The translations under genes and the position numbers were made by a program. The notes below the pieces were generated by a model. The model was not told where the DNA came from. It saw only the letters and a list, made by a program, of their open reading frames with translations, and searched no databases. This document shows, in pieces, positions 2,721 to 15,516 of a DNA stretch of 20,649 bases (position 1 is the first letter of the stretch; every line of letters starts with the position of its first letter). The stretch covers positions 1 to 20,649 of IMG/VR virus record IMGVR_UViG_3300020185_000312, one strand, 5' to 3'. This DNA comes from a virus.

Positions 2721-2993
2721 ATGAAAAAACTAAACACTATTTTATACATTCTAATTTTGAGTTTCTTAATTACAGGATGTGCAGACGTAAGCCCTAACGC
2801 AATCGATTGCGTTAATGAATCTTCTTATGGATTCTTTGGGGGTTTATGGCATGGACTAATATCAATATTTTCTTTTATAGGAAGCCTGTTTATGGATGAT
2901 GTGGCAGTGTATGCCTATAACAACAATGGAGCCTTTTATGATTTTGGTTTTTTACTGGGGGTTGGGGCTTTTGCTTCTCGTGCGACAAAGTAG
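2721..2993 (+). CDS. small lipoprotein-like membrane protein
   Basis: The 90-residue product starts with a signal peptide (KKLNTILYILILSFLITGC) whose lipobox L-I-T-G-C would make C20 the lipidated residue. The mature part has a hydrophobic stretch with FFGGLWHGLISIFSFIGSLF at about 38-57 and a second, Gly/Phe-rich one near the C-terminus (YDFGFLLGVGAF). The arrangement GLWHG-I-I-S-FIGSLF followed by a NNNG-FYDFGF motif resembles a small conserved protein family that I recall from bacterial genomes; its function is unknown to me. It follows the helicase by 4 bases and directly precedes the first DUF1566 unit, 4 bases after its stop. It could be a host-derived gene carried with the variable-protein array, for instance a membrane partner, but that is inference. 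Confidence 0.7.
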   Translation: MKKLNTILYILILSFLITGCADVSPNAIDCVNESSYGFFGGLWHGLISIFSFIGSLFMDDVAVYAYNNNGAFYDFGFLLGVGAFASRATK

Positions 2994-2997
2994 TAAT

Positions 2998-3321
2998 TTG
3001 ACAATTACAAAACACATATTACTAGAAGACAGAAAGTCAATCAACGGACTAGAAGTGTCTCATAATCTAGGGTCAATGAATTGGCATGAAGCAAAAATTG
3101 CTTGTAAAAAATTAGGACTAGGATGGAGATTGCCAACAAAAGACGAATTAAATATGCTTTATGAAAATAAGGAAGAAATTGGCGGTTTTGCTAATGTCAA
3201 CTATTGGAGTTCTACGGAGTACGGTAACGCCAGTGCGTGGAAGCAGAGTTTCGGCAGTGGTTTCCAGAACTTCAACTTTAAGGCCAGCCTCAACTATGTT
3301 CGCGCTGTTCGGGCTTCTTAA
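2998..3321 (+). CDS. DUF1566/C-type-lectin-like variable protein, unit 1
   Basis: First of three tandem genes of identical length (107 residues). The fold signature is DUF1566/Fibrobacter major paralogue type: NWHEAKIACKKLGLGWRLPT at 28-47, E50-L51, IGGF at 61-64, YWSSTE at 69-74 and the C-terminal YVRAVRAS. These domains adopt C-type-lectin-like folds and are known targets of diversity-generating retroelements. Residues 66-68 and 75-99 differ sharply between units while interleaved A80, W81, Q83, F85, G88, Q90 and K95 are fixed. There is no ATG; the only sensible start is TTG at 2998, also conserved in the other units. An ATG-initiated extension upstream was rejected because it is a shadow of the lipoprotein gene. 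The N-terminus TITKHILLED contains L-L-E, a possible prohead-protease site. Confidence 0.75.
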   Translation: MTITKHILLEDRKSINGLEVSHNLGSMNWHEAKIACKKLGLGWRLPTKDELNMLYENKEEIGGFANVNYWSSTEYGNASAWKQSFGSGFQNFNFKASLNYVRAVRAS

Positions 3322-3341
3322 CAATTTAACTATTTAACCAT

Positions 3342-3665
3342 TTGACAATTACAAAACACATACTACTAGAAGGCAAAAAGTCAATCAATGGATTAGAAGT
3401 GTCTCATATTTTGGGTATATTGAATTGGTATGACGCAAAAATTGCTTGTCAAAAATTAGGAGCAGGATGGAGATTGCCAACAATAAAGGAATTGAATATG
3501 TTTTATGAAAACAGGGAAGAAATTGGCGGTTTTGCTAGTTTCAGCTATTGGAGTTCTACGGAGAACGATAACTACTATGCGTGGAGTCAGAATTTCACCA
3601 ATGGTATACAGAGCAACTTCAATAAGTACGGCACTGGCTACGTGCGTGCTATTCGGGCTTCTTAA
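3342..3665 (+). CDS. DUF1566/C-type-lectin-like variable protein, unit 2
   Basis: Second unit, exactly 344 bp downstream of unit 1 and again 107 residues from a TTG start. It keeps the same scaffold (NWYDAKIACQKLGAGWRLPT, IGGF, YWSSTE, the A-W, Q, F, G, Q and K anchors) but has a different variable set, for example N-D-N-Y-Y at 75-79 and Y-G-T-G at 96-99. It also carries silent and conservative changes in its constant tail (GTG CGT GCT ATT instead of GTT CGC GCT GTT), showing it is an older duplicate rather than a recent copy. The 20-base spacer between units contains TTTAACTATTTAACC and no strong ribosome binding site. It is probably translated by coupling with unit 1, or else is a silent cassette; the sequence does not decide. 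Confidence 0.7.
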   Translation: MTITKHILLEGKKSINGLEVSHILGILNWYDAKIACQKLGAGWRLPTIKELNMFYENREEIGGFASFSYWSSTENDNYYAWSQNFTNGIQSNFNKYGTGYVRAIRAS

Positions 3666-3685
3666 CAATTTAACTATTTAACCAT

Positions 3686-4009
3686 TTGACAATTACAAAA
3701 CACATACTAATAGAAGGCAAAAAGTCAGTCAACGGACTAGAAGTTTCTGATAATTTGGGTATAATGAATTGGTATGACGCAAAAATTTACTGCAAAAAAT
3801 TAGGAGCAGGATGGAGATTGCCAACAAAAGACGAATTGAATATGCTTTATGAAAACAAGGAAGAAATTGGCGGTTTTGCTAGTAACTACTATTGGAGTTC
3901 TACGGAGGTCGATTACAACTATGCGTGGATTCAGAATTTCTTCAATGGTTACCAGAGCAACAACAATAAGAACTACTACAACTATGTTCGCGCTGTTCGG
4001 GCTTCTTAA
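3686..4009 (+). CDS. DUF1566/C-type-lectin-like variable protein, unit 3
   Basis: Third unit, again 344 bp on, 107 residues, TTG start. Its variable segment is closest to what a DGR template would encode: many AAC, AAT and TAC codons, giving S-N-N-N-K-N-Y-Y-N at 91-99. The scaffold residues are unchanged. The N-terminal peptide is TITKHILIEGKKS, whose HILIE is identical to the start of the capsid-like ORF at 12524 (GSHILIEK). After the stop the unit-spacing sequence is repeated once more (CAATTTAACTATTTAAC) and then the tRNA promoter begins. Function is likely ligand or receptor binding by analogy with other DUF1566 DGR targets, perhaps on the virion or host surface; that is inferred from family knowledge. 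Confidence 0.72.
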   Translation: MTITKHILIEGKKSVNGLEVSDNLGIMNWYDAKIYCKKLGAGWRLPTKDELNMLYENKEEIGGFASNYYWSSTEVDYNYAWIQNFFNGYQSNNNKNYYNYVRAVRAS

Positions 4010-5098: not shown

Positions 5099-5580
5099 CT
5101 CAAATATTTTATCATTGCAAGCAGCTGTCACCTTCAACTTTAATAAGGAGAGTTTAATAGTCACTTCTTAGACACTGCTTGCATCTTATTAAGCCTGACA
5201 CAGCAGGTTTATAGAGGTTGTACGGTCCAAATTTACTCTATAAAATCTCATGGGACCTATGCTGGTGACAATTCCAGACGCGGAGATGAGATGAAACCTT
5301 AGACACTTAATTAATGTCTGTATGGGATTAAGCCGTGAAAGAACGGGGCAGACTGTGAAAAAAACTGCCCCTTTTTAAGACATTTAAAATTCGTGCTGCT
5401 TAATCAACGGCTAGTCCAGTCCATAGGACGATTAGAAATGGTATGATAACCATAATGGAGATACTCCAACAGTAGTTAAGTCTACACAAGTGTTCAGGAT
5501 AGGTGTGAGTCGTTGTTGATGCCTTGCCGCCAGGTATTGGAAGAAGCGTCCTTGAGATAGCACCCGCTTGATGTTGGAAT
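5099..5580 (+). ncRNA. large structured non-coding RNA candidate
   Basis: About 480 bases with no credible reading frame but clearly higher GC and dense pairing. Elements seen: GCAAGCAG (5117-5124) with CTGCTTGC (5175-5182); CAGCA (5201-5205) with TGCTG (5260-5264) enclosing TATAGAG (5210-5216) with CTCTATA (5236-5242) interleaved with GGTCC (5224-5228) and GGACC (5253-5257), i.e. a pseudoknot; AGACA/TGTCT at 5301-5319; GGGGCAG/CTGCCCC at 5345-5371; GTCC-ATA-GGAC at 5419-5429; ATGGT/ACCAT at 5438-5453; TGGAG-ATA-CTCCA at 5456-5468; and TCCAACA (5465-5471) as an alternative partner of TGTTGGA (5572-5578). Large ornate RNAs such as GOLLD and ROOL lie beside tRNA genes in phages, so membership in such a class is plausible but unproven. 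The plus strand is chosen because the tRNAs are on it. Ends are approximate. Confidence 0.6.
5345..5376 (+). terminator. terminator-like hairpin inside the structured RNA region
   Basis: A perfect 7-bp GC-rich stem (GGGGCAG with CTGCCCC, 13-base loop) is directly followed by TTTTT at 5372-5376. It could end the RNA at about 5376, making the downstream 200 bases a separate RNA, or be an ordinary internal stem, since folded sequence continues after it. Confidence 0.5.
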
Positions 5581-5584
5581 TAAT

Positions 5585-6283
5585 TTAAATAAGCTCTATT
5601 AACTCCTCAAATTGTTTTTCTGATAGTCTATCGAAAGATATTTTTTTCTTGATATTTTTAGAATATATTAGCTCTTCATTTGGCTCATCTATATACCAAT
5701 CTTTTCCTCCAATTTTTACTTTAGGTAAATCTAAGTCTATTTTTTTTCTACTTCCTGATTTAGATTTTTTACTTTCACCACTCAATTTTGTAAAGAATAA
5801 TTCGTTTTTTATTATTCTATCAACTCTTAATTTTTCTTTTGTTTGTTGGATATAGTTTTTAGCAAAATATATTGTTTGTATTTCATTTCTCCTAATTATA
5901 ACATATATTTCATTTCCATTGCTATTTGTTTTTTTATCCACAAATAATAAGTTTTTTCCTATAGAATCTATTTTATCATCTTCAGAATAATAATTTATTT
6001 CATCTGGGTTTATTTTTATATATGTTAGTCTTATTCCAAAATCTTCATCTTCTGGGAATTTGTAATCTTCTATAAATTTATACTTCTTTTTTATAGACTC
6101 TTTTTCGCCATTACTTAAGTTGTATGTTCCTACAGTTTTATACTCTCCAACAGAACCTTCCTTTTCATATCCTACTGGTATATTTTTTCTATCTAAAAAC
6201 CTTTCAGACAACCTATCTAGAGAATGCACCCCAGAAAAGGCTTCTTCTAAAATTTCTTTAACGATTTTTCTAATATAATTCAT
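5585..6283 (-). CDS. tagged phage protein of unknown function
   Basis: The 232-residue product starts with the helical tag MNYIRKIVKEILEEAFSG, related to the tags at 747, 10795, 14713 and 15516. The start at 6283 is preferred over an ATG six codons upstream at 6301 because the tag begins here. Next comes HSLDRLSERFLDR at about residues 20-32, a motif style I recall from small phage proteins, then a mixed alpha/beta region with IGKNLLFVDKK and EIYVIIRRNEIQTIYFAKN, reminiscent of a small nuclease/toxin-like sheet but without recognisable catalytic residues. A basic linker (KKSKSGSRKK) leads to a C-terminal helix pair. The (I/L)-x-E sites V-K-E and L-E-E|A fit prohead processing, so it may be packaged; the catalytic role, if any, is unknown. 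It is divergent from the kinase gene at 6314. Confidence 0.72.
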   Translation of the reverse strand: MNYIRKIVKEILEEAFSGVHSLDRLSERFLDRKNIPVGYEKEGSVGEYKTVGTYNLSNGEKESIKKKYKFIEDYKFPEDEDFGIRLTYIKINPDEINYYSEDDKIDSIGKNLLFVDKKTNSNGNEIYVIIRRNEIQTIYFAKNYIQQTKEKLRVDRIIKNELFFTKLSGESKKSKSGSRKKIDLDLPKVKIGGKDWYIDEPNEELIYSKNIKKKISFDRLSEKQFEELIELI

Positions 6284-6290
6284 ACATTTG
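6283..6290 (+). promoter_or_regulatory. TAnnTTTG promoter element before the kinase gene
   Basis: TACATTTG matches the Bacteroidetes -7 consensus and lies 23 bases before the ATG at 6314. It overlaps the start codon of the divergent tagged gene. ATATTTATTA, a recurrent pre-start element of this window, lies at 6302-6311. Confidence 0.45.
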
Positions 6291-6313
6291 TAAATAGTCA
6301 CATATTTATTATT

Positions 6314-7009
6314 ATGAAAAGAAAAATGTTAGTTTTAGTTGGCCCACCTTCTGTAGGAAAGTCAACATGGATATCTTCAAACTATCCAGAATCATATGTC
6401 ATTAATAGAGATGATATTGTAGAATCAGTAGCATCAAGTTACGGTTGGACTTATGATGATATGTTTGCAACACCACCAGAAGATGCAGAAATAGGTGAAG
6501 TTGACGAAAAGTATGGAACAATCAAAGAGTCTCCATCTTGGATGACTTGGGCTAATACTATATTTGACAAAGTTTTTGAGGCAAATGGAAAAGTTCAAAA
6601 ACTAATGAATGATAAAGTTGCTCAGGCACATCCTAGCAATAAAGATGTAGTTGTTGATATGACAAATATGAATTCAAATTCTAGAAAAAATGCAATGAAA
6701 GCAATAGAGGGAAATGAAGAAGATTATCATAAAGTAGCTGTAGATTTTAAATTTCAAGGAGCAGAAGAGGTAATAAAAAAAATGGCAGAAAAAAGAGCCG
6801 AATCAGCTCGAAGGATGGGTAAGTCTAAAACCATTCCTGCACACGTATTTGACAAAATGTTTTCATCTTATTCTAAACCCTCAACTTCAGAAGGTTTTGA
6901 TGAAATAGTTTCTGTTGATAATGTAAATAATCTTAAAAGTGCTTTAGATGACGAAAGCTTAAAAGAATCAATTAGAAGAACGGTGAGAAAAGAATTATGG
7001 AATTTGTAG
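6314..7009 (+). CDS. PseT-like polynucleotide 5'-kinase (P-loop kinase domain)
   Basis: The 231-residue protein is a P-loop kinase of the T4 polynucleotide kinase (AAA_33) type. Walker A is GPPSVGKST at 10-18, followed by YVINRDD at 28-34, matching the INRDD of T4 Pnk that binds substrate. The VVVDMTNMNSNSR stretch at 112-124 corresponds to the T4 DTNLNPERR region, and KTIPAHVFDKMFSSY at 172-186 matches its KAVPIDVLRSMY lid/arginine region. The C-terminal phosphatase domain of T4 Pnk is absent. Such enzymes phosphorylate 5'-OH ends of RNA or DNA, for example to repair tRNAs cut by host anticodon nucleases. The last 18 residues (ESLKESIRRTVRKELWNL) look like the packaging-type tag seen elsewhere but at the C-terminus. 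An insertion at about 45-80 is unlike T4. The next gene overlaps its end by 13 bases. Confidence 0.85.
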   Translation: MKRKMLVLVGPPSVGKSTWISSNYPESYVINRDDIVESVASSYGWTYDDMFATPPEDAEIGEVDEKYGTIKESPSWMTWANTIFDKVFEANGKVQKLMNDKVAQAHPSNKDVVVDMTNMNSNSRKNAMKAIEGNEEDYHKVAVDFKFQGAEEVIKKMAEKRAESARRMGKSKTIPAHVFDKMFSSYSKPSTSEGFDEIVSVDNVNNLKSALDDESLKESIRRTVRKELWNL

Positions 7010-7473
7010 GAAAATATAAAAATTGGTACAAAAGACTTGTTGATTCAGGGTATCCAAATGCTAAAGAGAAAGTTACAGAATTTATGGAATCACACAATGA
7101 CATTATATGGGAAAAAAAATTGATAAAATTAGTTAAAAATGGTATGAGCACAAAGTTGGCAATGGATAAAATTGCCGCATTAAGAGAAGGTTTTTCTGGT
7201 GATAATAAATGTGAAAAATTTGTTCAAGGAATAGAAGAAAAAAGTTCAATAAATACAAAAAGTCAACATTTTATAATTAAAAGTTTGCCACCTGAAGATA
7301 GATTGTTATTTTTAAAAAAGTTTAAAACAAAATATTTTGAAAATAATTTTGATGAACTTTATCAAGACCTGGAAGATGATTGTGTAAAAAGGGGTTATGT
7401 TGATAATGAAATCAAGTTCATAGTTGAAGGTAAATATGTGAAGGCATATGTCAAAGTTGAGATTATTATGTAA
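6997..7473 (+). CDS. unknown protein coupled to the kinase gene
   Basis: The 158-residue product is mainly helical and not recognised. It begins MEFVGKYKNWYKRLVDSG, with an aromatic/basic N-terminus, and contains an acidic C-terminal part (DELYQDLEDDCVKRGYVDNEIKFIVEGKYVKAYVKVEIIM) with a likely beta hairpin at the end. Its ATG lies inside the last codons of the kinase gene (13-base overlap in another frame), so translation is probably coupled and the two proteins may act together. No catalytic motif, membrane segment or zinc ligand pattern is visible. Confidence 0.75.
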   Translation: MEFVGKYKNWYKRLVDSGYPNAKEKVTEFMESHNDIIWEKKLIKLVKNGMSTKLAMDKIAALREGFSGDNKCEKFVQGIEEKSSINTKSQHFIIKSLPPEDRLLFLKKFKTKYFENNFDELYQDLEDDCVKRGYVDNEIKFIVEGKYVKAYVKVEIIM

Positions 7474-7515
7474 TATAGTAAAAAAACAATATATTTATAA
7501 CAAATATCAAATTAT

Positions 7516-8013
7516 ATGCAACAGGTACTAGTATTAAATAGCACTTACCAACCAATTAATGTAACTAGTTTGGCAAGAGGTTTTAAGTTAGTATTCAAAG
7601 GTAAGGCAGAAATATTAGAACACATTAATAAAAGTCCTATTATTACTGAAAAAAATGTTTTTAAAAGACCTACGGTAATAAGATTGCTTAAGTATGTATC
7701 AGTTCCTTTTAGAAAGGTTTATTTGTGTAGACAAAATATATTTAAAAGAGACGATTTTAAATGTTTATATTGTGATAGTGAAAAAAACTTAACAATAGAC
7801 CACGTAATACCCAGCTCTAGAGGGGGTAATAATACTTGGCAAAATTTAGCTACATGCTGTAAGTCTTGTAATGAAACTAAAGACAACAAAACGCCAGAAG
7901 AAGCTAACATGAAAATGAGACATACACCATTTAGGCCTTCATATATATATTATGTCCAAAAATTTAAACAAATTCATAAGTCTTGGAATGTCTATGTTGG
8001 TCTTAAAGTCTAA
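7516..8013 (+). CDS. HNH endonuclease family protein
   Basis: The 165-residue protein has a complete HNH zinc fold: C83-x2-C86, the D95-H96 dyad in TIDHVIPSSRGGNN, N106 and W108-Q-N110 in NTWQNL, then C115-x2-C118 and N119. The N-terminal part (VLVLNSTYQPINVTSLARGFKLV, RPTVIRLLKYVSVP, YLCRQNIFKRD) is the conserved region of a widespread bacterial and phage HNH family in which nuclease and N-domain occur together at about this length. Members cut DNA using a single metal ion; physiological roles are mostly unknown. The stop codon overlaps the stop of the convergent GH16 gene (8010-8013), so no terminator separates them. It may be a homing-type or genome-processing nuclease. Confidence 0.88.
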   Translation: MQQVLVLNSTYQPINVTSLARGFKLVFKGKAEILEHINKSPIITEKNVFKRPTVIRLLKYVSVPFRKVYLCRQNIFKRDDFKCLYCDSEKNLTIDHVIPSSRGGNNTWQNLATCCKSCNETKDNKTPEEANMKMRHTPFRPSYIYYVQKFKQIHKSWNVYVGLKV

Positions 8014-8876
8014 TTTTTTTTATAAGCTCTAACGTAATCTATTTCATGATATGTTGGAAATTTAGCCTCATCTAATTTTCTTTCCTTAATAGGGTCTATT
8101 TGGTTTCCTATAATAATGTGCATAGGGTATTTAAATTCATTGATAGCTCTTGGGTTGCTAAATACTCTAATTAATATATTATCATAATATATTTTAAACC
8201 CTTTCTCATTCCATTCTACAGCATATGTGTGAAATTCTTTTGATATATTTTGAACATTATGCCCCATTACTTTCATTTTTTTATTTTTAGGAGTCCCCCA
8301 ATGAAAGTTAGATTCAAAACTTACCAAACCTTTAACGGGTCTACCAGTGTACATTTCGTATATGTCTATTTCTGGTGGCCACGAGTTTTTGGATGCCATC
8401 CAAAACGCAGGCCAATGCCCAGGTTGAACGGTCATTTTACTTCGTATCTCAAAGAAACCATATTTTTGCTCAAAAGATTTTGAACTATCTAAATGTCCAA
8501 CTCTATAAGGAATGGTAAATTTTCCATAATTCACTCCGTTTAAGTCAGTGTAATTTATTTTTATGGGATTTTTTTCAGATTTTTGTTTTATTGTTGAATC
8601 TGTAAACTCAAACATATTGTCTCCGCAATATTGTATTGGAGCTCTGTTTTCATTTACAATATTCCCAGGATGGTATCTTAATCCAAAATAATGGTCAGTT
8701 CTCCACTTTTTTTTGTCTAATTTTTTTTTATCAAAATTATCTTCAAAAGTGATTGTCCATCCATTTTTTTTTGAATTGTTTTTTACATTATTAAATTTTC
8801 TTGAATAAAACGCTAAGTAACACCATAGTCTAATTTTTAAAAATAAATTAACCAGGTAATCTTTTACTATCCACAT
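8010..8876 (-). CDS. GH16-family beta-glycanase (laminarinase/lichenase-like)
   Basis: The 288-residue protein has the GH16 jelly-roll signatures: WTITFEDNFD near 40-49, KYGFFEIRSKM at 138-148, GHWPAFWM at 153-160 and the catalytic motif E169-I-D171-I-Y-E174 (ExDxxE), whose first glutamate is the nucleophile and last the acid/base. The C-terminal YHEIDYVRAYKK (276-287) is the usual end of the domain. GH16 enzymes cleave beta-1,3/1,4-glucans, agar, carrageenan or porphyran with retention; substrate cannot be told here. The N-terminus (VNLFLKIRLWCYLAFYS, residues 9-25) is hydrophobic with basic residues and may be a signal anchor. It sits downstream of the holin-like and lysozyme genes on the same strand, which suggests a job in depolymerising host capsule, matrix or stored glucan during entry or release. 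All catalytic residues are intact. Confidence 0.9.
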   Translation of the reverse strand: MWIVKDYLVNLFLKIRLWCYLAFYSRKFNNVKNNSKKNGWTITFEDNFDKKKLDKKKWRTDHYFGLRYHPGNIVNENRAPIQYCGDNMFEFTDSTIKQKSEKNPIKINYTDLNGVNYGKFTIPYRVGHLDSSKSFEQKYGFFEIRSKMTVQPGHWPAFWMASKNSWPPEIDIYEMYTGRPVKGLVSFESNFHWGTPKNKKMKVMGHNVQNISKEFHTYAVEWNEKGFKIYYDNILIRVFSNPRAINEFKYPMHIIIGNQIDPIKERKLDEAKFPTYHEIDYVRAYKKN

Positions 8877-10360: not shown

Positions 10361-10795
10361 TTATGGGTATTGAAATTCAATCTCAATAGATTTATAATCA
10401 TTATTTATTGATACCGCTGTTGGGTAAAGGCTGTTTGAATTTTCTGTTTTTTCTATGTTCAACTTAAACCCTTCAAAACTATCGCCGTCAATAATGCCTG
10501 AGCCAAAGTCATAAACTTTTTCAATATTTTCTAATTCATCCTCCCATGAATCTTCTGTTCCTCTATATACTTCAGAGTTTAAAGTCAATTTATGAATGTT
10601 AGGCTTTAATACACTGAATCCATATGTCTTTTCGCTAGTAAATAAGCTCCATTCTACCGTTGCAGTGGCGTCTCCAAAATAATCGTTTGGCCCCAGCACA
10701 TCTTTCATATATAAATGTAAATTTACTTTTGTCACATACGTTTCTGAATCCGAACTTAATGCTTCTCTTATTATTTTCCTAATTTCATGCTTCAT
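10361..10795 (-). CDS. tagged beta-rich protein, unknown function
   Basis: The 144-residue protein opens with MKHEIRKIIREALSS, the recurrent tag, here with I-R-E|A exactly as the T4 prohead-protease rule (I/L)-x-E|A predicts. The rest alternates polar and hydrophobic residues (YVTKVNLHLYMKDVL, GDATATVEWSLFTSEKTYGFSVL, FEGFKLNIEKT, SIEIEFQYP), as expected for an all-beta domain. No family is recognised. ATATTTATTAAC abuts the ATG. It has its own terminator (10287-10319) and is divergent from the YqeY-like gene at 10868. Virion or internal capsid protein is a guess based on the tag. Confidence 0.7.
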   Translation of the reverse strand: MKHEIRKIIREALSSDSETYVTKVNLHLYMKDVLGPNDYFGDATATVEWSLFTSEKTYGFSVLKPNIHKLTLNSEVYRGTEDSWEDELENIEKVYDFGSGIIDGDSFEGFKLNIEKTENSNSLYPTAVSINNDYKSIEIEFQYP

Positions 10796-11267: not shown

Positions 11268-11576
11268 ATGTCACATCTACAAAAATATATATACAATAAA
11301 TACAGCACACCCAGCCAAGATAGTGAAATAAAGCTTATCACATATTGTAATTTTATATCAGATATACTTAAAAGCTATTTGATAAAAAAAAATATGACAA
11401 CAGAAGTTTTGTCTAAAAAAATTGACATACCACAAGATGACATTAAGTTGATGTTGAGCGATGTTTATGTATACAATTTTAGCGTAGAGGAACTGGCTAA
11501 ATTAGACCTTTTATTTGAAGGGCATTATGATATTTATGAAAAAAAACTTTTGATAGAAACGATAAAACAATTTTAG
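11268..11576 (+). CDS. small HTH-like protein downstream of YqeY-like gene
   Basis: The 102-residue product has a central region that reads like a helix-turn-helix of the XRE/Cro type: SYLIKKNMTTEVLSKKIDIPQDDIKLMLSD at about 37-66, followed by VEELAKLDLLFE, the usual capping helix. The Q-x-x-L-A positions are replaced by E-V-L-S, so the assignment is weak. No DNA-cleavage or metal motif is seen. It begins 1 base after the YqeY-like gene and is surely co-transcribed; its stop overlaps the stop of the convergent gene at 11573. A small regulator is the likeliest role. Confidence 0.6.
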   Translation: MSHLQKYIYNKYSTPSQDSEIKLITYCNFISDILKSYLIKKNMTTEVLSKKIDIPQDDIKLMLSDVYVYNFSVEELAKLDLLFEGHYDIYEKKLLIETIKQF

Positions 11577-12439: not shown

Positions 12440-12523
12440 TTTAAATATAATTTAATTGTTAATAATAAATATTAAAAAAATTCATTTATTGACTTTAATT
12501 GATGTTTTTCTTATCTTGCATAA

Positions 12524-12853
12524 ATGGGTAGTCATATTTTGATAGAGAAGTGTGGAAACATTAGTTTGGAAATAACCTCTGTTCAAGTAACAGGAGAAAG
12601 TAGGCCACTAAGAGCACGCTGGACTCCTGAGCTTGCTCAAGATTTAGACGCTTTAGACTACTACACCAATAGTTATCAGCCAGAAGAGCCTGAAAATGTA
12701 TATAAAAAGATATTATTAACTGAAAAATATATACCTTGTAATTTTAAAAGTATCGATATCGAAGAAGAGCTTTCTAATATTTTAGCCACAGAAGTTGCAG
12801 CATCTATTAATTCAAATATATTCGGTAGTTTAAGTGATTTGGAAAATGAATGA
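12524..12853 (+). CDS. small ORF with two gp23 (major capsid)-like segments
   Basis: The 109-residue product contains two stretches that read like the C-terminal part of T4-type major capsid protein gp23: ISLEITSVQVTGESRPLRARWTPELAQDL around 13-41 and SIDIEEELSNILATEVAASIN around 76-96. In gp23 these are almost adjacent (the consensus is roughly K-A-x-Y/W-T-x-E-L-A-Q-D-L, then E-x-E-L-x-N-I-L-x-T-E-I). Here about 35 residues separate them, including ENVYKKILLTEKYIP (58-71). The N-terminus GSHILIEK repeats the HILIE of the DUF1566 proteins. A whole capsid protein would exceed 400 residues, so this is a mini-gene or a remnant. The frame is intact and the next ORF's ATG overlaps its stop, which argues for expression. 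TTATCTTG lies before the ATG as a possible promoter element. Confidence 0.7.
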   Translation: MGSHILIEKCGNISLEITSVQVTGESRPLRARWTPELAQDLDALDYYTNSYQPEEPENVYKKILLTEKYIPCNFKSIDIEEELSNILATEVAASINSNIFGSLSDLENE

Positions 12854-13169
12854 TTCTATAAAATTATATTTAGAAGAGTGGAATAATTTAGTTTATCCTA
12901 AAAAAGAAAACGTATACAAAAGAAAACTTCTTGTTGAAAAGGTTGAAAAACATCCTAGGATTACTTTCCCTTTTGTAAGGGATGTGGCAGCAAATTTAGT
13001 AAGCGATTCACTTGTTACTGTTCAACCTCTTGAAGCACCAACGGGTATATTGTTTTATATGGACTATAATAGTAATTCAAATAAAAGAATGCTATTAATT
13101 GAAAGAAGAAAAAGAAGAAGAAGAAGAAGAAGAAGGCCAGAAAATGAAGGAAAAAAAATTTATAGATAG
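12846..13169 (+). CDS. small ORF with gp23 N-terminal-like segment and poly-Arg tail
   Basis: From the ATG overlapping the previous stop (ATGAATGA) the product is 107 residues. After ENVYKRKLLVEKVEK (21-35), nearly the same motif as in the preceding ORF, comes FPFVRDVAANLVSDSLVTVQ and then PLEAPTGILFYMDY (41-74). This matches the gp23 core signature (x-V-R-R-x-x-x-x-L-V-A-x-x-x-V-Q-P-M-x-x-P-T-G-x-x-F). A further KRMLLIE (80-86) follows and then the frame runs through a GAA/AGA triplet tract as R-R-K and eight further arginines before stopping. In the frame used by the next ORF the same tract reads E-rich. The poly-Arg end therefore looks like the result of a one-base slip in the tract; before it, this ORF and the next may have been one gene. 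Confidence 0.62.
   Translation: MNDSIKLYLEEWNNLVYPKKENVYKRKLLVEKVEKHPRITFPFVRDVAANLVSDSLVTVQPLEAPTGILFYMDYNSNSNKRMLLIERRKRRRRRRRRPENEGKKIYR
13101..13135 (+). repeat. GAA microsatellite at the junction of two ORFs
   Basis: Seven perfect GAA units at 13114-13134, extended imperfectly upstream to 13101 (GAAAGAAGAAAAA). The tract encodes poly-Arg in one frame and poly-Glu in another. Changes in length not divisible by three would switch the upstream ORF between ending here and continuing into the sheath-like ORF. Confidence 0.8.
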
Positions 13170-13386
13170 CTGGATTAAGACATACAAAAGAACTTTATTA
13201 ATTGAAAAGTATGTTGAACATAATGTTCGAGTTTTAGAAACTGATTTCACTGTTTTAGGTTATGACTTAATCACATCTGATTCAACTATAATCGGAATTA
13301 GCTCTAGAGCAGTCGGCGGTCCAATTAATTATCCTACACAAATAAGAAGCTCAGAAGAATTTGGAGAAATTTTTGGTAATGTGTAA
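13144..13386 (+). CDS. small ORF with tail-sheath-like N-terminal segment
   Basis: From ATG 13144 the product is 80 residues; a longer version from TTG 13099 would add a Glu-rich leader read from the GAA tract. TYKRTLLIEKYVEHN at 13-27 repeats the motif of the two preceding ORFs. The remainder, with S53-S-R-A-V-G-G-P-I-N-Y-P-T-Q-I and S69-S-E-E-F-G-E-I-F-G, closely follows the N-terminal pattern of contractile tail sheath proteins (V-G-x-A-x-x-G-P-V-N-x-P-x-x-I-x-S-x-x-x-F-x-x-x-F-G). Sheath proteins are several hundred residues long, so only a fragment is present. The frame overlaps the end of the poly-Arg ORF. It may be a decoy or interaction peptide, or a fragment left by recombination. 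Confidence 0.65.
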   Translation: MKEKKFIDSWIKTYKRTLLIEKYVEHNVRVLETDFTVLGYDLITSDSTIIGISSRAVGGPINYPTQIRSSEEFGEIFGNV

Positions 13387-13436: not shown

Positions 13437-13784
13437 ATGAGTTTAACACAAAAGGAGAAAGACGAAATTTACGAAAAAGTTGAAAACATGACACCTAAAC
13501 AAAGAAGCGATAGAATGAATAGGTTGGTAAATGAATCTATAGTTAAGAGTGTCTTTGTACATGTTGTTTTGTTGTTATATATAATTGTATCCTTGTACAT
13601 AAAACAAAACTATGAAATTAATAGCCTTATATATACAGCTTTAATTGGGGTAGGCATTTTTTGGACTTACGGTTGTATGTTGACGTTTCAAGCATATTTG
13701 TTTTTTAAGAGCGCAAAAAATTTATCTAATTCATTTGGTTCAAGCATAAAAGATGGCATTGATTTTTTAGATTCAAATGAATAA
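13437..13784 (+). CDS. small membrane protein with amphipathic N-terminus
   Basis: The 115-residue protein starts with a charged helix (TQKEKDEIYEKVENMTPKQRSDRMNRLV, residues 4-31), then two transmembrane helices at about 38-55 (KSVFVHVVLLLYIIVSLYI) and 64-90 (SLIYTALIGVGIFWTYGCMLTFQAYLFF), ending in a polar tail. No family is recognised. It is followed by a strong bidirectional terminator (13801-13836), so it ends the plus-strand block that includes the capsid/sheath-like ORFs. Roles such as superinfection exclusion or lysis control are common for such phage proteins but nothing in the sequence points to one. Confidence 0.7.
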   Translation: MSLTQKEKDEIYEKVENMTPKQRSDRMNRLVNESIVKSVFVHVVLLLYIIVSLYIKQNYEINSLIYTALIGVGIFWTYGCMLTFQAYLFFKSAKNLSNSFGSSIKDGIDFLDSNE

Positions 13785-13800
13785 TTTGATTTAAAAACAC

Positions 13801-13836
13801 AAAAAAAGCGACTCTAATAATTAGGTCGCTTTTTTT
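13801..13836. terminator. bidirectional terminator between convergent genes
   Basis: AAAAAAAGCGAC (13801-13812) pairs with GTCGCTTTTTTT (13825-13836); the 12-base interior contains CTAA and TTAG that extend the pairing. The A-run and T-run serve both strands, ending the gene at 13437-13784 and the minus-strand gene ending at 13853. Confidence 0.9.
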
Positions 13837-13852
13837 TATTTATTTAACTATT

Positions 13853-14715: not shown

Positions 14716-15516
14716 TTATTTATTTTGTAATATTTCTTTTATTTCCTCACTAACATTGCCACCATTAGACTCTATTGCTTCAGACAAAGTCTTTAACTGA
14801 CTAATTAATTGCTCTTTTTTAGTGTTGTCCTTATAAGACTTAACAGCTTTTTTAGCTTCTGATAAAATAAATGTTTTCAACTCTTTTTTAGTATAAGATT
14901 CTTTTAAATCTTTTTCTATATTACTTCCATCAATCTCTATCCCAGCAGCAATTCTATCTGTAGGCTCTTCAGCGTCTTCTTCAGGCATTCTTTCATGAAC
15001 TTCAGCTTTAGCTTGACCAGCAGTGTGAGAATTTCCTTTTTTCTCATCTCCAGCAGAAACATAAGTTTTAGCTTTTTCGTCTACTAATTTATCTTCAGAG
15101 TTCATTTCTAAATCTTCAACTCTTTCATCAAATGGTCCAGAAGCATCTGTTCCTTGAATATCTTTTTTAGATGTAAAATTAGCTTTAGCCTGTCCTTTAG
15201 TGTGTGTATCTGCACCTTTCTTTGCGCCAGCATCAACCTTTACAGCTACCGAAGCCTTTTTGTCAGAACCTTCAACATTATCTTTTGAGTTCATTTTTGG
15301 CATTTTTTCTACTTCGCCTTCTTTTTCTAATTTTTTAGAAGGGTCTTTATATACCAATGCCTTATCAGAGTCGCCTAGTTCATCATTTGAATTCATATCA
15401 ACATCGTATACGTTCATTGAATCTGTAACCGCTTCTGACTCTTGAATAGTAGCCCTTTTTATAGACTTTGCTTCATCTCTAATCATGTCTATAAGTTCTT
15501 GTTTGCTAATTTTCAT
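14716..15516 (-). CDS. tagged acidic/basic repeat protein, paralogous N-terminus
   Basis: The 266-residue protein starts MKISKQELIDMIRDEAKSIKRATIQES, paralogous over about 30 residues with the following gene. The middle is low-complexity and contains three related blocks beginning MNSNDELGDSDKALVY (about 41-56), MNSKDNVEGSDKKAS (about 75-89) and MNSEDKLVDEKAKTYV (about 139-154); the last two go on to D(A/E)KKG-x-x-HT-x-GQAKA. After D-x-A-A-G-I-E-I-D a C-terminal tag-like helix follows (YTKKELKTFILSEAKKAVKSYK). Nothing catalytic is visible. Repeats, tag and pairing with another acidic protein suggest a core or internal virion protein cut by the prohead protease. TATAAATA/TATTTATA lies at 15554-15561 upstream. 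Confidence 0.74.
   Translation of the reverse strand: MKISKQELIDMIRDEAKSIKRATIQESEAVTDSMNVYDVDMNSNDELGDSDKALVYKDPSKKLEKEGEVEKMPKMNSKDNVEGSDKKASVAVKVDAGAKKGADTHTKGQAKANFTSKKDIQGTDASGPFDERVEDLEMNSEDKLVDEKAKTYVSAGDEKKGNSHTAGQAKAEVHERMPEEDAEEPTDRIAAGIEIDGSNIEKDLKESYTKKELKTFILSEAKKAVKSYKDNTKKEQLISQLKTLSEAIESNGGNVSEEIKEILQNK

Follow-up and report, generated by a model that had tools for sequence, protein, structure and literature searches.

The locus described here raises the question of why a phage should keep short pieces of capsid and tail-sheath protein as separate small genes. The sequence analysed, called the window throughout, is a 20,649-nt stretch from an uncultured T4-like phage, and its cluster of three mini-ORFs lies at 12524–13386. 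An earlier note on this DNA had offered two ideas: mimics of virion proteins that titrate host sensors or regulate assembly, or debris left by recombination between structural genes. A functional mimic set is favoured over debris on the strength of the relatives' open frames, the selection on ORF1, the significance of the profile matches, and the recurrence of a permuted mini gene in four further phage groups. That preference holds for ORF1 and for the fused mini genes of those other groups; it is tempered by the loss of one piece of ORF2 from two of six genomes, and by the absence of any sign of purifying selection on ORF3 among close relatives.

Three overlapping ORFs and the proteins they derive from

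As the note had claimed, the three ORFs are intact and overlapping, and all lie open on the plus strand, with start codons that are conserved. ORF1 (12524–12853, 109 aa) consists of a tag, the gp23 piece B1, a second tag and the gp23 piece B2. ORF2 (12846–13169, 107 aa from its ATG) consists of a tag, the gp23 piece A, another tag and an arginine-rich tail, and ORF3 (13144–13386, 80 aa from its ATG) joins a tag to an N-terminal piece of the tail sheath. ORF1 overlaps ORF2 by 8 nt, and ORF2 overlaps ORF3 by 26 nt. Piece B1, the putative second E-loop strand (RPLRARWTPELAQD, 12554–12652, + strand, Gp23 positions 130–164), and piece B2, the putative start of the spine helix (IDIEEELSNILATEV, 12749–12832, + strand, positions 167–194), come from adjoining stretches of gp23 that are set apart in ORF1 by an inserted linker of ~32 residues. 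Piece A (TFPFVRDVAANLVSDSLVTVQPLEAPTGILFYMDY, 12954–13094, + strand, positions 5–51) covers the Gol region and the putative first E-loop strand.

The similarity to gp23 is significant in profile searches for both ORF1 and ORF2. Against the Pfam Gp23 family (PF07068), ORF1 scores 1.2e-10 (41.8 bits, in two stretches) and ORF2 4.5e-7 (30.1 bits), both above the curated cut-off of 24.4; against the PHROG "major head protein" family (PHROG 138), the values are 1.3e-10 and 1.1e-4. The origin of the segments had to be redrawn in part. ORF1 does contain two gp23 segments, as the note had it, and their source is the middle of gp23 (Pfam ~130–196, equivalent to residues ~277–341 of a 519-aa gp23 from a relative), not its C-terminus. 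The segment of ORF2 is also genuine gp23, relocated from the core to the first quarter of the protein (residues ~70–112). The sheath assignment of ORF3 is weaker and leans on a homologue: ORF3 itself matches the PHROG tail sheath family (PHROG 23) over only the N-terminal ~55 residues of the sheath at 0.0047, which is weak taken alone, while its homologue in G001 matches residues 5–57 of a 777-aa protein of G017 at 1.2e-5, and that protein is a sheath at 6e-79. Searches of ORF1–3 against Pfam and PHROG gave no convincing family besides gp23 and sheath, and matched no described anti-defence family.

The gp23 pieces amount to only about 45 and 65 of roughly 520 residues. The full order of the HK97 fold (A, insertion, B, A-domain, C-terminus) is absent from the mini-ORFs, which hold positions ~5–51 and ~130–196 in reversed gene order. 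Since only these two stretches are present, and in reverse, the minis are best regarded as derived from the capsid family rather than as functional members of it. A split or mis-assembled capsid gene was considered and ruled out: the order is reversed, gp23 is intact in sister phages, and six independent contigs agree. Neither the window nor the five other contigs that carry the operon contain a full-length gp23, all six being genome fragments. Sister phages, identified by their match to the G002 baseplate wedge protein (72–79% identity), encode a normal gp23 of 519–521 aa adjoining the scaffold and protease genes, together with a 777-aa sheath. Because close relatives carry these normal full-length proteins, the mini pieces are extra. 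Their best matches among gp23s reach 47–59% identity in several lineages, none of them specially the phage's own; an origin from its own recent gp23, also considered, is unsupported, as the minis are about equally distant from many gp23s. A separate observation concerns L097, in which one phage has two adjacent full-length gp23 genes (5260–6762 and 6873–8756).

The repeated tag

The motif that the earlier note saw ahead of each segment is real. It comprises nine residues, Y-K-[KR]-x-L-L-[IVT]-E-K, and in 14 copies the L, E and K positions hardly vary. Since the codons do vary between copies, the tag is conserved as a protein motif. It stands ahead of every piece, once more inside ORF1, and also behind piece A of ORF2. 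On the plus strand of the window, YKKILLTEK falls within the gp23 homology of ORF1 (12701–12727), YKRKLLVEK (12915–12941) and NKRMLLIER (13080–13106) lie in ORF2, the latter followed by the arginine-rich tail up to about 13136, and YKRTLLIEK lies in ORF3 (13183–13209). The basic, arginine-rich tail of ORF2 is retained in L025, L002 and L004. Good copies of the tag in these contigs are almost all in the mini-ORF cluster, which rules out a general leader of the phage. One extra copy is C-terminal in the neighbouring HTH protein (11268–11576, + strand), a weak HTH match encoded upstream of the operon; it reads YEKKLLIET in the window (11535–11561) and YEKKLLIEK in relatives. Judged by this common motif, the HTH protein and the minis may share a binding partner.

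Terminal tags of other kinds are in wide use in this lineage. An N-terminal tag of the form [IL][KR]x[IL][IL]xE[EA] (MKISKQELIDMIRDEA, MNEIRKIIREAL) occurs in about 35 proteins, rarely internally in most contigs. Examples are found in the window on the minus strand at 14716–15516 and 10361–10795, and many such genes share the upstream element CTATTTAT with virion genes. This tag is a candidate capsid-targeting leader. The tag of the minis, YKRxLLIEK, differs from this IRKIIREEA-type leader of the lineage's other late, tagged proteins. A further terminal tag, SESYKNRLKxLAGL or a close variant, appears at the N- or C-termini of proteins in L219, L222, L073 and others; the window's lysozyme-like protein and the presumed scaffold protein both carry it C-terminally.

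Transcription and neighbouring genes

A sigma-70-like promoter, TTGACT-17-TATCTT, lies just 5′ of the ORF1 start codon (12489–12517, + strand). Both hexamers are identical in the window, L003, L025 and L026, with a spacer that differs; such patterns are about as frequent in this A+T-rich DNA as chance predicts (9 found against 8.8 expected). Upstream of the virion genes of this lineage, CTATTTAT was seen 30 times against 2.2 expected; over the 70 nt that precede start codons in G001–G005, G016 and G017, its enrichment is about nine-fold, with sheath, scaffold and protease genes as notable cases. This distribution makes it a candidate late promoter of the phage lineage. It is absent ahead of ORF1, and an ORF1 that lacks it and carries a conserved sigma-70-like element of its own is compatible with expression before the capsid. 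Another element, TTGACTTT, was considered as an early-gene signal and ruled out because late tail genes are also preceded by it; it is specific to ORF1 only together with TATCTTG at 17 nt.

Behind ORF3, a small membrane protein of 115 aa (13437–13784, + strand) has hydrophobic segments at 35–53 and 64–82. Its close homologues are confined to the three nearest operon-carrying relatives, and L002 and L004 have unrelated small membrane proteins at the equivalent position. A terminator-like inverted repeat, AAGCGAC...GTCGCTTTTTTTT (13806–13840, + strand), closes the unit after this gene; in L003, L025 and L026, the stem is conserved and the loop is changed. ORF1, ORF2, ORF3 and the membrane-protein gene thus probably form one transcript with a schedule unlike that of the virion genes, as indicated by its own promoter-like element, the lack of CTATTTAT and the conserved terminator-like hairpin.

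Two further features of the window lie apart from the operon. Three tandem Lcl_C (PF07603) genes at 2896–4009 vary over their last ~126 nt mainly at NNC-type codons, with identical ends; 35 of the 41 variable sites have an A in at least one copy, and the sites are spread 16/19/6 over the three codon positions. G002 has five copies of this gene. The gene ends look like tandem variable regions of a diversity-generating retroelement; a reverse transcriptase was found on none of nine contigs from the group, the majority of them incomplete. A glycosyl hydrolase family 16 gene (8010–8876, − strand, 4.7e-21) possibly acts against a host or environmental polysaccharide.

The operon in relatives and the selection acting on it

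Five further viral contigs of 41–88 kb, from other metagenomes, carry the operon (L002, L003, L004, L025 and L026). The site is identical in all five, with YqeY and HTH genes on one side and a small membrane-protein gene on the other. They share the order of the ORFs and the tag, two of them minus the gp23 piece of ORF2, so that the cluster the earlier note described does exist in related phages. The frames are kept open: ORF1 homologues are full-length in all five, at 47–70% protein identity to that of the window. ORF2 has the layout of the window in L025, L002 and L004, and ORF3 homologues occur in L025, L003, L002 and L004. The gp23 piece of ORF2 was lost in different ways in two of the six genomes. 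ORF2 is truncated in L003; in L026, the piece has been deleted and ORF2 is joined to ORF3 at the tag, which identifies the tag copies as recombination points.

Purifying selection, the other property on which the note's idea depended, was found in part of the cluster. The dN/dS ratio (omega) of ORF1 is 0.23–0.57 between clades and 0.7–0.9 in a few closer pairs, and ORF1 and its tags are maintained in six genomes at a synonymous divergence near 1. When the observed changes are placed at random, frames stay open in 0.2–3% of cases for ORF1 and 0.2–0.3% for the fused minis described below, and the differences in both fall mostly at third codon positions. By the pattern of substitution, then, both kinds of gene are under purifying selection. 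For comparison, omega is 0.17–0.29 in the adjoining genes for the membrane protein and the HTH protein. The omega of ORF3 is near or above 1 among close relatives, and the window differs from L025 by 13 nonsynonymous and 0 synonymous changes (p 0.03). On the same kind of evidence, ORF3 evolves fast and shows no purifying selection when close relatives are compared.

Permuted capsid pieces in other phage groups

A run of the gp23 profile across all fetched loci brought out a second type of gene, the fused mini, in which piece B is joined directly to piece A in a single gene of ~125–136 aa, the second piece coming first. Fused minis occur in four further phage groups (L024, L044–L046, L015 and L135). 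In the first three of these, omega is 0.25–0.36 with saturated synonymous divergence. Those of L024, L045 and L015 carry a short F[KR]x[FIL][RQ]G-like motif at one terminus or at both, and lie directly upstream of glycosyltransferase genes (assigned by eye). A fifth group, represented by the 29.8-kb contig G024, has a tandem array of three mini genes with a common leader, MRT/SIxQY, that is unrelated to the tag (MRTINQY, MRTIKQY and MRSLKNL). Their contents are piece B, the C-terminal strand region of gp23, and a tail-fibre-like C-terminus, the last recognised by eye. A 270-aa mosaic gene in G016 ends in the gp23 C-terminal region and is an insertion before a glycosyltransferase gene, absent in the sister phage G017, and the L015 phage has an additional gene with the gp23 A-domain region. 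On the contig of the L135 fused mini, a 201-aa protein resembles the N-terminal region of gp23 (L241:1105–1710, − strand, 5e-7).

In a tree of 71 columns, the 11 B segments of the minis group together on one side of a branch with an SH-aLRT support of only 83, and may therefore have a single origin. Among named phages, gp23-type mini queries returned gp23-type matches, with no permuted mini among the matches listed, and the ORF3 query found nothing; a pattern scan of GTDB species genomes found no minis. The 484-kb phage LR756508 was examined as a possible carrier of a permuted mini and set aside, the match being its normal gp23.

The surfaces retained

An AlphaFold model of a same-lineage gp23 (26 sequences, mean pLDDT 68), whose best PDB matches are T4 gp23, places piece A at helix 70–90 and strands 92–111, and piece B at strands 277–295 and helices 300–341, with B2 in helix 311–341. 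By analogy with HK97, the two pieces would represent the two strands of the E-loop and the spine helix, which flank the insertion region. The B-then-A order would consequently place both termini of a mini where the insertion domain had been. For the fused mini, no confident fold was predicted (pLDDT 41, four sequences).

These regions have a bearing on bacterial immunity. The Lit protease becomes active once EF-Tu is bound by the Gol region, which lies in the first quarter of gp23 (PMC3014915), and CapRel binds a capsid protein at its P-domain sheet and spine helix (PMC9712102). By this comparison, the minis appear to retain what Lit and CapRel recognise, which is consistent with a decoy function. 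Within gp23, these surfaces also show the highest conservation and serve as assembly interfaces, so the overlap with the sensed surfaces may be coincidental.

What the small proteins may do

The best explanation, to which we assign a probability of a little under two in five, is that the cluster encodes accessory virion-protein mimics that compete with freshly synthesised gp23 and sheath for their binding partners, host sensors being the likeliest. Each small protein would display one capsid or sheath surface joined to the common short tag: the Gol-region helix and first E-loop strand, the second E-loop strand and spine helix, or the sheath N-terminal arm. The mimics would then occupy a partner to which new gp23 or sheath would otherwise bind, and the tag would keep them together in one complex. 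Host defence sensors of conserved capsid and tail surfaces would be the most likely partner, silenced while the real virion proteins accumulate. Since the pieces are contact surfaces without a catalytic site, occupation of a partner is the simplest way for them to work. The decoy role is rated highest because two known bacterial sensors, Lit and CapRel, read the gp23 regions that are kept, and the excess of amino-acid changes in ORF3 and the losses of the ORF2 piece fit an accessory gene in an arms race. Those losses, in two of six genomes, and the near neutrality of ORF3 among close relatives can equally be held against a decoy. In addition, a mimic bearing the trigger surface could activate a sensor and not block it. 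The wider proposal that several uncultured T4-like phage groups keep tagged, permuted virion-protein fragments as decoys showing sensor-read surfaces is offered more tentatively still.

The mimics might instead be directed at assembly, binding gp23 or sheath subunits either to regulate the phage's own assembly or to poison that of competing T4-like phages in superinfection exclusion, perhaps with the involvement of the operon's small membrane protein. This account, which we consider doubtful, follows closely behind the decoys, since the kept regions are the most conserved ones and form assembly interfaces. All identified pieces are contact elements of HK97-fold capsids or contractile sheaths, and their positions (E-loop, spine helix, sheath N-terminal arm) suit it. 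So does the similar distance of the minis from many gp23s, which a broad target would predict, as does the presence of a small membrane protein at the same site in every lineage of the group. However, dominant-negative peptides made before or with gp23 would also harm the phage that makes them, unless its own gp23 were resistant.

Recombination debris, in which gp23 and sheath pieces were joined by short repeats and remain open under weak or no selection because they are short, is unlikely for the cluster as a whole and would apply above all to ORF2 and ORF3. The truncation in L003, the fusion in L026 with loss of the gp23 piece at a tag, the use of tag copies as recombination points, the omega of ORF3 at or above 1 among close relatives, and the G016 insertion missing from G017 are all what debris would produce. 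They are countered by an ORF1 omega well below 1 across six genomes at a synonymous divergence near 1, by the constraint on the fused minis (0.25–0.36) despite synonymous saturation, by an identical permuted order in separate lineages, and by the conservation of the promoter-like and terminator-like elements.

Could the pieces be packaged, like internal proteins, and enter the next host by way of the head, with the leader or tag as capsid-targeting and prohead-protease signal? The T4 prohead protease follows the cleavage rule [LI]xE, which LLIE|K in the tag resembles, although a K following the putative cut would be unusual. Tandem small genes with only a leader in common, clearest in G024, the retained arginine-rich tail of ORF2, and the wide use of terminal tags in this lineage would all agree with packaging. 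Yet the lineage's main N-terminal tag, the IRKIIREEA type on late-like genes with CTATTTAT, differs from YKRxLLIEK, ORF1 lacks CTATTTAT, and the tag is frequently internal, which together make packaging quite improbable. Least probable by far is a role for the segments as DNA or RNA, in recombination homology or regulation of gp23 mRNA: the few synonymous changes in ORF3 between the window and L025 would suit it, but tag copies encode the same residues by different codons, differences in ORF1 and the fused minis are concentrated at third positions, and the protein identity of the pieces to any gp23 is at most about 59%.

Comparison with known systems

Capsid and tail proteins are frequent triggers of bacterial immunity, and they are hard for a phage to alter. 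If the minis are decoys, cheap fragments of these proteins would be a general phage answer, and those that evolution has kept would show which surfaces the sensors recognise. If assembly is their target, they would amount to natural peptides that inhibit the building of capsids and sheaths. In both cases they represent phage genes that escape annotation based on full-length proteins or are recorded there as broken capsid genes. No such gene set was found in the named phages searched, and the literature searched contained no phage-encoded capsid-fragment decoy or antagonist.

The T4 internal proteins are a diverse set with only a capsid-targeting sequence in common (PMC3012670). IPI–III of the T-even phages resemble the minis: they too are sets of small accessory proteins, variable apart from a short common leader. 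Unlike the minis, they are not built from pieces of virion proteins, and for the mini tag a targeting role is putative. The source of pieces A and B is the protein family of T4 gp23 itself (PF07068, PHROG 138), to which the profile matches are significant; compared with T4 gp23, the minis lack the insertion domain and the A-domain, and present the remainder in reversed order, split by tags. Piece A comes from the conserved stretch in the first quarter of gp23 that also holds the Gol peptide, the trigger of the Lit protease of e14. Gol, however, triggers defence as part of the full capsid protein, whereas the minis are free-standing small genes. The capsid contacts of CapRel-SJ46, the P-domain sheet and the spine helix, are the part retained as piece B; CapRel is a sensor of the host, whereas the minis are encoded by the phage.
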